Positions 59,736 through 64,000 of a stretch of DNA of 64,000 bases are shown in pieces. The notes beneath the pieces were generated by a model. That model was not told where the DNA came from and did not search any database. It saw only the letters and a list, made by a program, of their open reading frames with translations. A program made the translations under genes and the position numbers. The stretch is from Aureitalea marina (GTDB lineage: Bacteria; Bacteroidota; Bacteroidia; Flavobacteriales; Flavobacteriaceae). The stretch spans positions 2,592,501 through 2,656,500 of the forward strand of contig NZ_MQUB01000001.1 of NCBI RefSeq assembly GCF_002943755.1, written 5' to 3'. Positions within the stretch are counted from its first letter, which is position 1, and every line of letters starts with the position of its first letter.

Positions 59736-60173
59736 ATGAGAATATTCATTTTACTTGTACTGATCACTACATCGCTTGCTGCCCAGGAGCACGTATTGGT
59801 CAAATCCGGATACGGAGCCGCCGGTTACGACCTGATCTCCTACTTTGAAGGAGAGCCGGAGAAAGGGGATAAGGCCTTCCAGGCTGAACACCAGGGAGTA
59901 AGCTATAAGTTTATTTCTGAAGAACACTTGAAGAGTTTTAAGAAGGATCCGGAACGTTACCTTCCTCAATATGGGGGCTATTGTGCCTATGCCATGGCCT
60001 TGAAGGGGGACAAGGTAGGGGTAAACCCGAAGACTTTCCTGATCACAGGCGATAAACTCTACCTCTTCTATAACAAGTTTGGGGTTAACACCCTCAAGAA
60101 GTGGGAAAAGGAGAACCCTGAGCAATTAAAACAGGCTGCAGACGTCTATTATAAGGCGCTACTGGATCAGTAG
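59736..60173 (+). CDS. Exported YHS-domain protein
   Basis: A 145-residue protein with a signal peptide (1-16, ending TTSLAAQE) and a YHS domain (about 25-90): GYDLISYFEGEP, YKFISEEHLKSFKKDPERYLPQYGGYCAYAMA. YHS domains bind metals, often copper. Its position beside the metal-related genes at 60.2-64 kb is suggestive, but transcription is from the opposite strand to its neighbour. Confidence 0.88.
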   Translation: MRIFILLVLITTSLAAQEHVLVKSGYGAAGYDLISYFEGEPEKGDKAFQAEHQGVSYKFISEEHLKSFKKDPERYLPQYGGYCAYAMALKGDKVGVNPKTFLITGDKLYLFYNKFGVNTLKKWEKENPEQLKQAADVYYKALLDQ

Positions 60174-60183
60174 CATTGTGAAT

Positions 60184-60657
60184 TTAATCATTGACGGCCT
60201 GCAGTACATTCAGCAATTCGTCAGGTCCCAAAAAGGCATTGTGTTGAAATTGGATCTCGTAATCCTGGTTTAAAATTACACTAACCGGATAGGTTAGCTG
60301 CCCATCTACGGTCCCTAATTGCTCCGCCAGTTGATGGATACCGGTTTTTAGGCCTGTAGATTGATACCGAAATCGTGCACCAAGGAAAACGACATCTTCT
60401 CTGCTTTCACCGTTAAAAGGCACATAGTAGAATTGTTGGTTCAATTTTTTGATAACTGCGTCTTCTTTAAAAGTGCTCTTTTTCATGGCCGTGCAGAACT
60501 TACACCAATCTGTATACAGAAACACCAGCACCGGTCTTGGATCTTGCTTCATATTTTCCTCCAGTTCCGTAAAAGTAGTCGTCTCCAATTCCTGGGATAG
60601 TATGGAAGAGGTGCTTAACAGCAAAAACAAGAGCAAAATAAAATCGGCAGGTCTCAT
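60184..60657 (-). CDS. Thioredoxin-like exported protein
   Basis: A 157-residue protein: signal peptide (about 1-21), then a thioredoxin fold with CKFC in FLYTDWCKFCTAMKK (about residues 52-55). The rest resembles DUF255/thioredoxin_7-type proteins. The receptor stop codon overlaps its ATG by 1 nt (TAATG), so it is translated with the TonB receptor. Keeping the receptor's CX2C motif reduced, or delivering electrons to a metal site, are inferences. Confidence 0.87.
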   Translation of the reverse strand: MRPADFILLLFLLLSTSSILSQELETTTFTELEENMKQDPRPVLVFLYTDWCKFCTAMKKSTFKEDAVIKKLNQQFYYVPFNGESREDVVFLGARFRYQSTGLKTGIHQLAEQLGTVDGQLTYPVSVILNQDYEIQFQHNAFLGPDELLNVLQAVND

Positions 60658-62921
60658 TAGAAAGCAGTGTATCTCAGGCCAACAAATCCTCTTATCCCCT
60701 GGTTAGATGCATAGACATAGCTGGGATCAAATGTCAGGCCAAAAGGATTATCAGCTGTAGGTACAGCCTGACCATTTTCGTCAAAGACCACATCCTCATC
60801 GAAAGGATCGAAAGACCTCGCAATGCTGTCGTCTGCCGGAGTGAAATTCAAAAGGTTCTTTACACCTCCAAATAGCTCCCAATCGGTACCAAACCGTTTG
60901 GTCAATTGAATATTCTGTATGCTAAACCAAGGTGAGAATTCGTCTCTTGGGTCTGTCTCACTGATCAGGGGCAGGCGCATGGGTCCGTAGAGATTTCCGG
61001 TATAATCGAAGGTGAGGTCGATGGATCGAACCGTATAGGAAACGGACCATACCCCACTGAAACTCTCAGTGAGCAATTGCCTCCTTGTTTCACCATTCTC
61101 TGTCACCGAGACATCCATTAAGGTTGCACCGGCCAACACCTTGAGTCCATTTCTCCAAACCATATCTGTATTCAAGGACACCCCTTGTGAGACAGAAGAA
61201 CCCTCCAGGTTAGCATAGATGATCTTATTGGGGTCGGTCTCGTAATCCGGAAGGATGCGATTGGTGAAATAGGTGTAGAAAGCTGAAGCGTCCAGGGTGA
61301 AGATGCTCCCTGTATTGCTGAAGAACCGTTTAATGTAATTCACATTGGCGTTCCAGGAGGTCTCCGGGTCTAGTTTGCCGTCAAAAACCACCTCCCTGGC
61401 ACCTGTAAGTGCCGCGTGATCTTCCGTAAATACATTGGCAACACGGAATCCATTTCCTCCGCTTAACCGCAGAATATTGCTTTTGTCCGTTGAGGTCCAT
61501 TTGTAGTTGATACGGGGAGAGAATATGTTTCCATGAACACTGTTGTAGTCCCAGCGCATTCCCGTTAAGAGGGTATTGTTGGAATCGAACTTCCACTCGT
61601 CCTGCACGAACAATCCTGGTAAATGGATAACCGAGGGTTCGTTCTCTATTCCGTCGGCATCCCTGGTCGCAAAAGTGTTGTCGTCGTAAAAAGTATATCT
61701 GTAGGCTGCCCCAACCAGTAGGTCGTGATCCTGACCAATTGTGCTATTCCAGGTAAATTGACCAAAACCAATGTATTGATCTGCATTGTAGGAGTCCGTG
61801 CCGTAGAATGAGTTTTGGTTGTGCCCGTTAGCGGAGAATTGGAAGGTAATGGGCACATCCATTGGAAGGGTATAGGTCCCGAATGTTTCCCATCTGCTGG
61901 TATAAATACTTTCACCGTAGACCTCGTCTCCTCCTCGAAAACCGCTGTTCCAGTTCATTTCTCCTCCCCAGCGATCTTCGTAAACATATCTGCCCGCCAA
62001 GGTAAAAACCCGGTTATCTTCCCGTTGAAAGTTCAGCTTATTGAAGATAGAAATACGGTTTTGAAGGGTCAGATCCGTAAAGCCATCACCATTGTTATCA
62101 ATTGGATTTTGGTAGTTGAAATAATTGACACCCAATAGGCCCTGAACCTTTTCGCCCATGTCGTACCTCAGCCCTAGGTCCGTATTCAGTTCTCCCCAAC
62201 CACTGACAAAAGATTCGATAGCGGCCTCTGGCGCATTGGATGGTTTCTTGGTAATGATATTGATGATCCCGCCAACTGCTTCAGAACCATATAGGGTGGA
62301 GGCCGGTCCCTTGACCACTTCCATGCGCTCGATCAGTGATTGTGGGATGCCGGTAAGACCGTAAACGGTAGAAAGACCACTGACTATTGGCATGCCATCG
62401 ATCAACACAAAGGTGTATGGCCCTTCCAGGCCATTGATATGAATATCACCGGTATTGCACACATTACAATTAAGCTGAGGTCGCACCCCGTTGATGTTCT
62501 GAAGGGATTCGAAAACAGAAGGAGTCGGATTCTTCTTAAAGAAATTCTTGCTGTAAACCTCTACTGGGACTGGACTTTCCAACTTACTCACCGGCCGTAA
62601 AGTTCCGCTTACCACCACTTCGTCCAGGGAGTTATCCGGACTTAACTGGAAGCTTACCTCTGTTCTACCTCCGATCAATGCCACTTGCCTCTGCTGAGTT
62701 TCAAACCCGGTGTAAGAGGCGGAAAGCGTCCATTCACCGTTCGGAACTTCCTCCAGGGAGTAAAAGCCGTTTTCGTCTGTGGTTGTCCCTTTCCCCAATT
62801 CCGCGATGTAGATATTGGCAAAAGGAAGGGTCTCGGTAGCTGAACTTACTGTACCGGAGATTGTATTTTGTGATGTGATGCTCAATGGAAAGAGTAGGAG
62901 CATCAGGATCCAGGATCGCAT
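60657..62921 (-). CDS. TonB-dependent outer-membrane receptor with a CNVCN motif
   Basis: A 754-residue receptor: signal peptide (1-18), CarboxypepD_reg-like domain (about 20-100), plug (about 115-220; VPVEVYSKNFF, IDGMPIVSGLSTVYG, ERMEVVKGPASTLYGSEAVGGIINIITKKP in parts), then a 22-strand-type barrel ending VGLRYTAF. NCNVCNTGDIHIN near residue 155 places two Cys three apart at the plug, a pair I associate with receptors near metal genes. The start is ATG 62921, since the upstream frame runs through its own promoter at 62949-62979. Ligand: possibly a metal complex. Confidence 0.92.
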   Translation of the reverse strand: MRSWILMLLLFPLSITSQNTISGTVSSATETLPFANIYIAELGKGTTTDENGFYSLEEVPNGEWTLSASYTGFETQQRQVALIGGRTEVSFQLSPDNSLDEVVVSGTLRPVSKLESPVPVEVYSKNFFKKNPTPSVFESLQNINGVRPQLNCNVCNTGDIHINGLEGPYTFVLIDGMPIVSGLSTVYGLTGIPQSLIERMEVVKGPASTLYGSEAVGGIINIITKKPSNAPEAAIESFVSGWGELNTDLGLRYDMGEKVQGLLGVNYFNYQNPIDNNGDGFTDLTLQNRISIFNKLNFQREDNRVFTLAGRYVYEDRWGGEMNWNSGFRGGDEVYGESIYTSRWETFGTYTLPMDVPITFQFSANGHNQNSFYGTDSYNADQYIGFGQFTWNSTIGQDHDLLVGAAYRYTFYDDNTFATRDADGIENEPSVIHLPGLFVQDEWKFDSNNTLLTGMRWDYNSVHGNIFSPRINYKWTSTDKSNILRLSGGNGFRVANVFTEDHAALTGAREVVFDGKLDPETSWNANVNYIKRFFSNTGSIFTLDASAFYTYFTNRILPDYETDPNKIIYANLEGSSVSQGVSLNTDMVWRNGLKVLAGATLMDVSVTENGETRRQLLTESFSGVWSVSYTVRSIDLTFDYTGNLYGPMRLPLISETDPRDEFSPWFSIQNIQLTKRFGTDWELFGGVKNLLNFTPADDSIARSFDPFDEDVVFDENGQAVPTADNPFGLTFDPSYVYASNQGIRGFVGLRYTAF

Positions 62922-62942
62922 TTTGATAGGTAGAAATATAAA

Positions 62943-62958
62943 TTTAGGCAAAACTAAA
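62943..62958. promoter_or_regulatory. Candidate metal-box operator (DtxR family) on the TonB receptor promoter
   Basis: TTTAGGCAAAACTAAA has TTTAG...CTAAA arms, close to the TTTAGG...CCTAAA type sites of SirR/MntR-like regulators. It fully covers the -7 element (62949-62956) of the receptor promoter and lies 38 nt upstream of the divergent DtxR-family gene. The arms match perfectly for 5 bases; the centre is imperfect. Confidence 0.55.
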
Positions 62959-62979
62959 AAAATAATAAGAAACCACAAA
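62949..62979 (-). promoter_or_regulatory. Consensus promoter of the TonB receptor operon
   Basis: On the minus strand: TTTG (62979-62976), exactly 19 nt, TAGTTTTG (62956-62949). Both halves match the Bacteroidota consensus. Transcription would begin near 62943, about 20 nt before the ATG at 62921, confirming that start. Confidence 0.8.
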
Positions 62980-62984
62980 AAATG

Positions 62985-62992
62985 TATATTTG
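62985..62992 (+). promoter_or_regulatory. -7 promoter element of the DtxR-family gene
   Basis: TATATTTG matches TAnnTTTG; it ends only 3 nt before the ATG at 62996, so transcription would start at or next to the A of the ATG. No TTTG lies at 19 nt upstream. A leaderless message is predicted. Confidence 0.45.
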
Positions 62993-62995
62993 CGC

Positions 62996-63664
62996 ATGGA
63001 TTTTACGCTTTCGGAAGAAAACTACTTGAAGGCCATCTTTCATTTGCAACAACAGTCTCCAAAAGGTGTGTCGACCAACGAGATTGCCGAGCGAATGAAG
63101 ACAAAGGCTTCTTCGGTTACCGATATGATCAAGAAGCTGGCTGCTAAGAAGCTGGTGAACTACGTAAAATACCAAGGTGCAACGCTTAGTGAAGAGGGGC
63201 GTCGTCACGCCCTGCATGTAATCAGAAAGCACAGATTGTGGGAAGTATTTTTGGTGGATAAGCTGGATTTTCCATGGGATGAGGTGCACGAGATCGCGGA
63301 GCAGTTGGAGCATATTCAGTCTAGGGAATTGGTTGCCAGATTGGACGAATTCCTGGGGCATCCACAGTACGATCCCCATGGAGATCCCATACCCGATGCT
63401 CAGGGAAAAATGGAGCGGAAACATCAACTATTACTGGCTCAATGCCAAGATGGAAAAGAGGTGATGTGCGTCGGAGTATTGGAATCCTCCAGTAAGTTTC
63501 TGCAATACTTGGATCAGAAGCACATTACCATTGGAAGCCGTATTAAGATCCTTGGGCGCGAACCATTTGACGGGTCCATGTCTGTAGAATTGGACGGAAA
63601 ACCTCTTTTCATTTCAGATAAAATTGCTAATAATCTCTATGTACAACCACAAAGCAATCTTTAG
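62996..63664 (+). CDS. Metal-dependent regulator, DtxR/MntR family
   Basis: A 222-residue regulator. The N-terminal winged helix (about 1-70; SEENYLKAIFHLQ, NEIAERMKTKASSVTDMIKKL) is followed by a dimer/metal-binding domain with His and Glu clusters (RKHRLWEVFLV, DEVHEIAEQLEHI, LGHPQYDPHGDPIP) and a C-terminal FeoA-like SH3 domain (about 150-220). Manganese- or iron-dependent repressors have this arrangement. It is cotranscribed with the ZIP transporter gene, 3 nt downstream, and is divergent from the TonB receptor, its likely target. Confidence 0.92.
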   Translation: MDFTLSEENYLKAIFHLQQQSPKGVSTNEIAERMKTKASSVTDMIKKLAAKKLVNYVKYQGATLSEEGRRHALHVIRKHRLWEVFLVDKLDFPWDEVHEIAEQLEHIQSRELVARLDEFLGHPQYDPHGDPIPDAQGKMERKHQLLLAQCQDGKEVMCVGVLESSSKFLQYLDQKHITIGSRIKILGREPFDGSMSVELDGKPLFISDKIANNLYVQPQSNL

Positions 63665-63667
63665 GCT

Positions 63668-64000
63668 ATGATGGATAAGCTGATCGATTTTGCTAGCCAG
63701 AACCCTATCCTGGCTGCCCTTTACGCCTCCTTGTTTACCTGGGGTATGACTGCACTAGGCGCTTCCCTGGTATTCTTCTTTAAAAAAGCCAAACGTTCAG
63801 TAATGGATGCTATGCTGGGCTTTACTGGGGGAGTAATGGTAGCTGCAAGTTTCTGGAGCTTGTTAGCACCAGCAATCGATAACAGCCCGGGGGAGGGATT
63901 TGCCAAGGTGGTGCCTGCCGCAGTAGGTTTTCTGATGGGTGCAGTTGTTCTTTTTGGTCTGGACAAGCTTTTACCGCATTTGCACATCAACTTTAAAAGG
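63668..64000 (+). CDS. ZIP-family metal transporter (3' truncated by window end)
   Basis: The visible 111 residues contain the first two membrane helices of a ZIP (ZupT-like) importer: FTWGMTALGASLVFFF (about residues 20-35) and MDAMLGFTGGVMVAASFWSLLAPAID (quoted in part: GFTGGVMVAASFWSLL, about residue 50-66), followed by DKLLPHLHI. The conserved His-rich loop and helices 4-5 are outside the window. Start ATG 63668, with 63671 as alternative, is 3 nt after the DtxR-family gene. It imports zinc, manganese or iron. Confidence 0.88.
   Translation, partial: MMDKLIDFASQNPILAALYASLFTWGMTALGASLVFFFKKAKRSVMDAMLGFTGGVMVAASFWSLLAPAIDNSPGEGFAKVVPAAVGFLMGAVVLFGLDKLLPHLHINFKR

Follow-up and report, generated by a model that had tools for sequence, protein, structure and literature searches.

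A conserved palindrome in the receptor promoter of Aureitalea marina as the putative operator of a DtxR/MntR-family metal-import switch

The primary metal site of Bacillus subtilis MntR is formed by D8, E99, E102 and H103, and that of Corynebacterium diphtheriae DtxR by M10, C102, E105 and H106. The manganese regulator of Porphyromonas gingivalis, PgMntR, is a DtxR-family member from Bacteroidota; its site is D19, C108, E111 and H112, it carries twin FeoA domains, it shares an operon with a manganese transporter of the FeoB2 type (FB2), and no palindrome was defined for it (PMC4805248). In Stenotrophomonas maltophilia, MntR controls an mntR/mntH/TBDR-pTFP module, in which a receptor with a CQNC motif is paired with a thioredoxin-fold protein and which is induced by joint limitation of manganese and iron (PMC13217887, 2026). 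CQNC modules were shown in Lysobacterales, Sphingomonadales and Opitutales, and the text of that paper mentions neither Bacteroidota nor flavobacteria (PMC13217887).

Here, we describe a locus of the flavobacterium Aureitalea marina in which a 16-letter palindrome lies between the gene of an outer-membrane receptor and that of a DtxR-family repressor. The window, i.e. the whole stretch of 64,000 nucleotides that was analysed, holds the following features of this locus:

60184..60657, minus strand: exported thioredoxin-fold protein, 157 aa, with a CKFC motif at 60493-60504
60657..62921, minus strand: TonB-dependent outer-membrane receptor, 754 aa (domain search)
62457..62468, minus strand: CNVC (C152-x-x-C155) in the receptor plug (sequence; many relatives have CQNC at the aligned position)
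62943..62958, no strand assigned: putative palindromic operator TTTAGGCAAAACTAAA, a DtxR/MntR-type box (sequence and conservation in relatives)
62949..62956, minus strand: predicted -7 element for the receptor operon, TAGTTTTG, contained in full in the box (sequence; -7 placement relative to the start from PMC9723704)
62976..62979, minus strand: predicted -33 element of the receptor promoter, TTTG (CAAA on the plus strand), with a spacer of 19 nt to the -7 element
62985..62992, plus strand: predicted -7 element for dtxR-ZIP, TATATTTG, lying 42 nt from the start of the box
62996..63664, plus strand: DtxR-family metalloregulator, 222 aa, with an FeoA-type C-terminal domain (domain search)
63668..64000, plus strand: metal importer of the ZIP family, extending beyond the window end to a full length of 276 aa (domain search)

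Like the S. maltophilia module, the locus has a DtxR/MntR-family regulator beside a TonB receptor with CxxC in the middle of its plug, followed by an adjacent thioredoxin-fold protein that also carries CxxC, together with an inner-membrane importer and a putative operator in the receptor promoter. The plug motif is CQNC in S. maltophilia and CQNC or CNVC here, and module and locus resemble each other closely in motif, partner and regulator. The two differ in phylum, in the sequence and length of the box and in the use of Bacteroidota -33/-7 promoters; moreover, the regulator described here has a FeoA domain and an Asn at position 9, and ZIP replaces or alternates with NRAMP. The FeoA domain and the operon with a transporter are likenesses to PgMntR, while fold, domain order and an interrupted palindrome as operator are shared with C. 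diphtheriae DtxR and IdeR.

That the divergent gene encodes a DtxR-family protein followed by a ZIP importer had been proposed from the letters of the window, and domain searches agree with this assignment. The regulator matches PF01325 (61 bits) and PF02742 (112 bits), both above cut-off, as well as FeoA, which places it in the DtxR/MntR family, and the ZIP transporter lies downstream. The start of the thioredoxin-fold gene overlaps the receptor stop (TAATG). Among the called ORFs of relatives, the plug reads CxxCNTGDIHING in 27 and CQ[N/T]C in 17, and 3 have neither and represent a different receptor; when CQNC receptors beyond Bacteroidota were sought in a plasmid search, no close match from outside the phylum came up. 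Beside the receptor operon, an exported YHS-domain protein (NF041384 type; 59736-60173) is encoded, with the thioredoxin gene on one side and a DnaJ-domain gene on the other.

We argue that the palindrome very likely serves as operator for the DtxR-family repressor encoded next to it, and that this repressor would act like MntR as an off-switch for the import of manganese and possibly iron. The sequence-only reading had placed a TTTAG(N6)CTAAA element at 62943-62958 and had it covering the -7 element of a TTTG-N19-TAGTTTTG receptor promoter. Both are borne out: TTTAGGCAAAACTAAA is found there, the promoter motif is present on the minus strand, and the whole -7 octamer falls inside the box. Flavobacterial sigma-A promoters have TAnnTTTG at -12 to -5 (PMC9723704), and the predicted start of the receptor transcript is at ~62944, with a leader of 23 nt.

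Within the 64-kb window there is a single match to the box, against an expectation of 0.06. To scan the genome, we used patterns and a model of 24 positions that had been derived from 40 related boxes. By this model, 62943-62958 is the only significant site of the genome (E 0.0048), the next best hit (E 1.2) being at the level of chance. The regulator is likewise single, with no second DtxR copy in the genome. There are four exact matches to TTTAG-N6-CTAAA in the whole 3.07-Mb genome; the other three (L001, L002 and L004) were rejected as operators, as they lie within or at the ends of coding sequences and score low. The search of the full genome that the sequence-only reading had proposed found the box at no other metal gene, and no significant box precedes either of the two NRAMP genes in the model scan. 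The genome also has two Fur-family genes; the box tracks the neighbourhood of DtxR, and we judge Fur to be the less likely regulator.

Conservation among relatives argues for a functional box. Upstream of dtxR it is exact in 27 of 30 loci of the family and has one mismatch in the remaining 3, and each of the 80 named Flavobacteriaceae loci holds a box, the weakest with 12 bits (L063). At a threshold of ≥17.5 bits, we found 84 sites in the 814,587 bases of these 80 loci against 0.5 expected from first-order Markov resamples, a comparison that is partly circular near dtxR because the score matrix was derived from boxes at the same loci. The boxes 2-4 kb from dtxR are a cleaner test, because they were left out when the matrix was built. 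In more distant families of Bacteroidota the box before dtxR is retained, commonly with NRAMP downstream, and in one of them (G265) a box precedes the orthologous receptor. Lack of conservation upstream of orthologous receptors had been named as the observation that would speak against the proposal; the box is instead found at the receptor start in nearly every receptor-bearing locus, even where the receptor and dtxR sit on different contigs.

The box moves with operon order and stays at the operon start. In many Flavobacterium, an NRAMP-Usp gene (PF01566, PF00582) is found upstream of dtxR and the box lies ~70 nt before the NRAMP gene. In two Winogradskyella loci, where receptor, thioredoxin, dtxR and ZIP follow one another on one strand, there is a single box, and it precedes the receptor. 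The box is also retained in genomes without a divergent receptor, which indicates that it belongs to the dtxR-ZIP operon as well. From the same retention one could argue that the box serves dtxR-ZIP only, and that it overlaps the receptor promoter merely because the intergenic region between the divergent genes is short. We hold this to be very improbable, since several of the NRAMP-inserted Flavobacterium (L075, L083, L090, L095, L097, L099 and L103) have a second box of the receptor's own, placed at its start and 4 kb away from dtxR, since in G094 a CQNC receptor whose contig differs from that of dtxR has the box 28 nt before its start, and since the receptor -7 element keeps to two fixed offsets from the box, as described below.

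Other genes were observed next to the box. On the divergent side of loci lacking the receptor, a ZnuA-family binding protein is found in L056 and L065. In other such loci (L052, L054, L076, L102 and L108), a predicted beta-barrel of ~250 aa (PF13557, starting with QTDRPDQTE) is divergent from the box, and is a candidate accessory protein of metal import. Salegentibacter and Gillisia (L072, L112 and L114) have a third type of receptor at the box, without CxxC and with an HQWGADHGL motif in the plug. In G115, a box lies upstream of a cluster of a DtxR-paralogue and FeoB; at L165:2414-4204, a DtxR-paralogue with a membrane-anchor-like N-terminus and a FeoA domain directly precedes feoB and has its own box. 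A box just downstream of uvrB was seen in at least eight other genera (L152, L154, L159, L163, L164, L167, L169 and L171); in two of them an M20-peptidase gene begins ~20 nt after it, and the others have no ORF of more than 80 aa there. This uvrB-side box is absent from the A. marina genome.

The geometry of box and promoters was counted in 58 loci with a box near dtxR. On the receptor strand, the -7 element is offset from the box by +2, i.e. inside it, in 19 loci and by +24/25, i.e. just past it, in 26, which together make up 45 of the 58, and it is hardly found elsewhere. Both arrangements overlap or abut the box, and A. marina has the embedded type. As TTTG lies within the box on the receptor strand in 19 loci and on the dtxR strand in none, the palindrome by itself does not account for the embedding. 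On the dtxR strand, a -7 element is found at +40 to +48 in 54 of the 58 loci, which suggests that the box serves the regulator's own dtxR-ZIP operon too. In A. marina only 3 nt separate this -7 element from the ATG, which predicts a leaderless dtxR transcript starting at 62996; a similar spacing of 4-5 nt is seen in 11 of 80 relatives. By position, then, the palindrome overlaps or adjoins promoters of metal import genes and of the regulator's own gene, as is typical of the family.

Relative to the predicted dtxR start, the box lies at ~-54 to -39, with its centre at ~-46, and abuts the -33 region. As this is upstream of the core promoter, an activator could bind there too, and the bound repressor might activate dtxR-ZIP rather than repress it. 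There is a precedent in B. subtilis MntR, which activates exporter genes from upstream sites (PMC11275975). We consider activation improbable here, as in class-level relatives with dtxR-NRAMP the -7 element lies where a repressor on the box would occlude it, at ~24 nt from its start, and activation by sufficient metal would be perverse because ZIP and NRAMP import metal. Repression of both operons is thus the reading that we carry forward: conserved in ~80 relatives, moving with import genes and sitting on the receptor promoter, the box is very probably an off-switch.

Which metal operates the switch is approached through the regulator and the partner genes. The putative primary site of the regulator is N9, E102, E105 and H106. 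Compared with the Asp/Glu/Glu/His site of MntR, three of four ligands are kept and Asp is replaced by Asn9; the Met10 and Cys102 of the iron subgroup of DtxR and IdeR are both replaced, by N9 and E102. Asn9 is invariant in 81 of 81 sequences, several more distant members of the phylum having Asp, and position 102, which is Cys in iron-type DtxR, is Glu in 80 of the 81 and Asp in one. The closest solved homologues by sequence are three-domain manganese regulators, namely SloR, ScaR and the metal-dependent regulator of PDB 5zr4, which have the equivalents of E102, E105 and H106 in common with the present family and Asp in place of its Asn9. The predicted fourth ligand is thus unlike that of the characterised B. 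subtilis MntR, C. diphtheriae DtxR and P. gingivalis MntR. Against the NCBIfam MntR equivalog NF047407, the regulator scores 172.5 bits, below the cut-off of 350.

As Asn9 takes the place of the Asp of manganese regulators, the metal is not readable from the site. The linkage to NRAMP and FeoB, together with the MntR-like site, narrows the choice from manganese, iron or zinc to manganese or manganese and iron, and manganese appears to be the likeliest sensed metal. That the same repressor and operator use Fe(II), or manganese and iron together, as co-repressor in an iron-type DtxR/IdeR switch is a lesser possibility that we take seriously. The site is neither that of MntR nor that of DtxR, N9 replacing D or M; one genome has the box at the DtxR-paralogue/FeoB cluster; P. 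gingivalis MntR binds both manganese and iron (PMC4805248); and the Stenotrophomonas receptor is strongly induced only under joint limitation of the two (PMC13217887). The Glu found in 80 of 81 sequences in place of the iron-type Cys102 nevertheless argues against it, as does NRAMP being the dominant alternative partner, and the two Fur-family genes could manage iron.

NRAMP does not normally transport zinc, and it takes the same operon position as ZIP. This makes us regard as unlikely a zinc switch in which the DtxR protein senses Zn(II) and the products of the ZIP, ZnuA-like and receptor genes take up zinc, even though the ZIP importer matches ZupT, the ZnuA-family binding protein of Gelidibacter adjoins the box and the plug cysteines of the receptor would suit zinc. 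The ZIP and ZnuA-family partners may fit zinc too, but manganese carriers exist among both.

With manganese as the preferred metal, we infer that the DtxR-family protein would bind the box, that metal would act as co-repressor, that this metal would be manganese and that the receptor would carry it. Given sufficient Mn(II) in the cytoplasm, and possibly also Fe(II), the repressor dimer would be loaded with metal and bind the palindrome, where it would cover both the -7 element and the transcription start of the receptor-thioredoxin operon and so exclude RNA polymerase. The bound dimer would also lower transcription of dtxR-ZIP, where the position of the box beside the -33 region would fit a milder self-repression. 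When metal is low, the repressor would release, and the receptor, its periplasmic thioredoxin-fold partner and the inner-membrane ZIP would be made together.

No paper on a flavobacterial DtxR/MntR operator was found in our literature search. From sequence comparison, there is good support for reading the locus as an import switch of the DtxR/MntR kind, in which a Bacteroidota operator and an unusual Asn ligand come together with a paired receptor and thioredoxin. It is conceivable, and to us an evenly balanced question, that the locus represents a manganese-import switch of Bacteroidota's own, with an Asn9-type DtxR, a class-wide palindrome able to embed the receptor -7 element, a CxxC-plug receptor and thioredoxin-fold pair as outer-membrane manganese entry, and interchangeable ZIP, NRAMP and ABC importers. 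Little is known of how manganese enters Gram-negative cells through their outer membrane, and hardly any of the metal regulation of Bacteroidota has been charted. The locus supplies a defined candidate operator, regulator and receptor-thioredoxin pair in a phylum outside the reported range of the 2026 module, and makes the question of outer-membrane manganese testable in genetically tractable flavobacteria.
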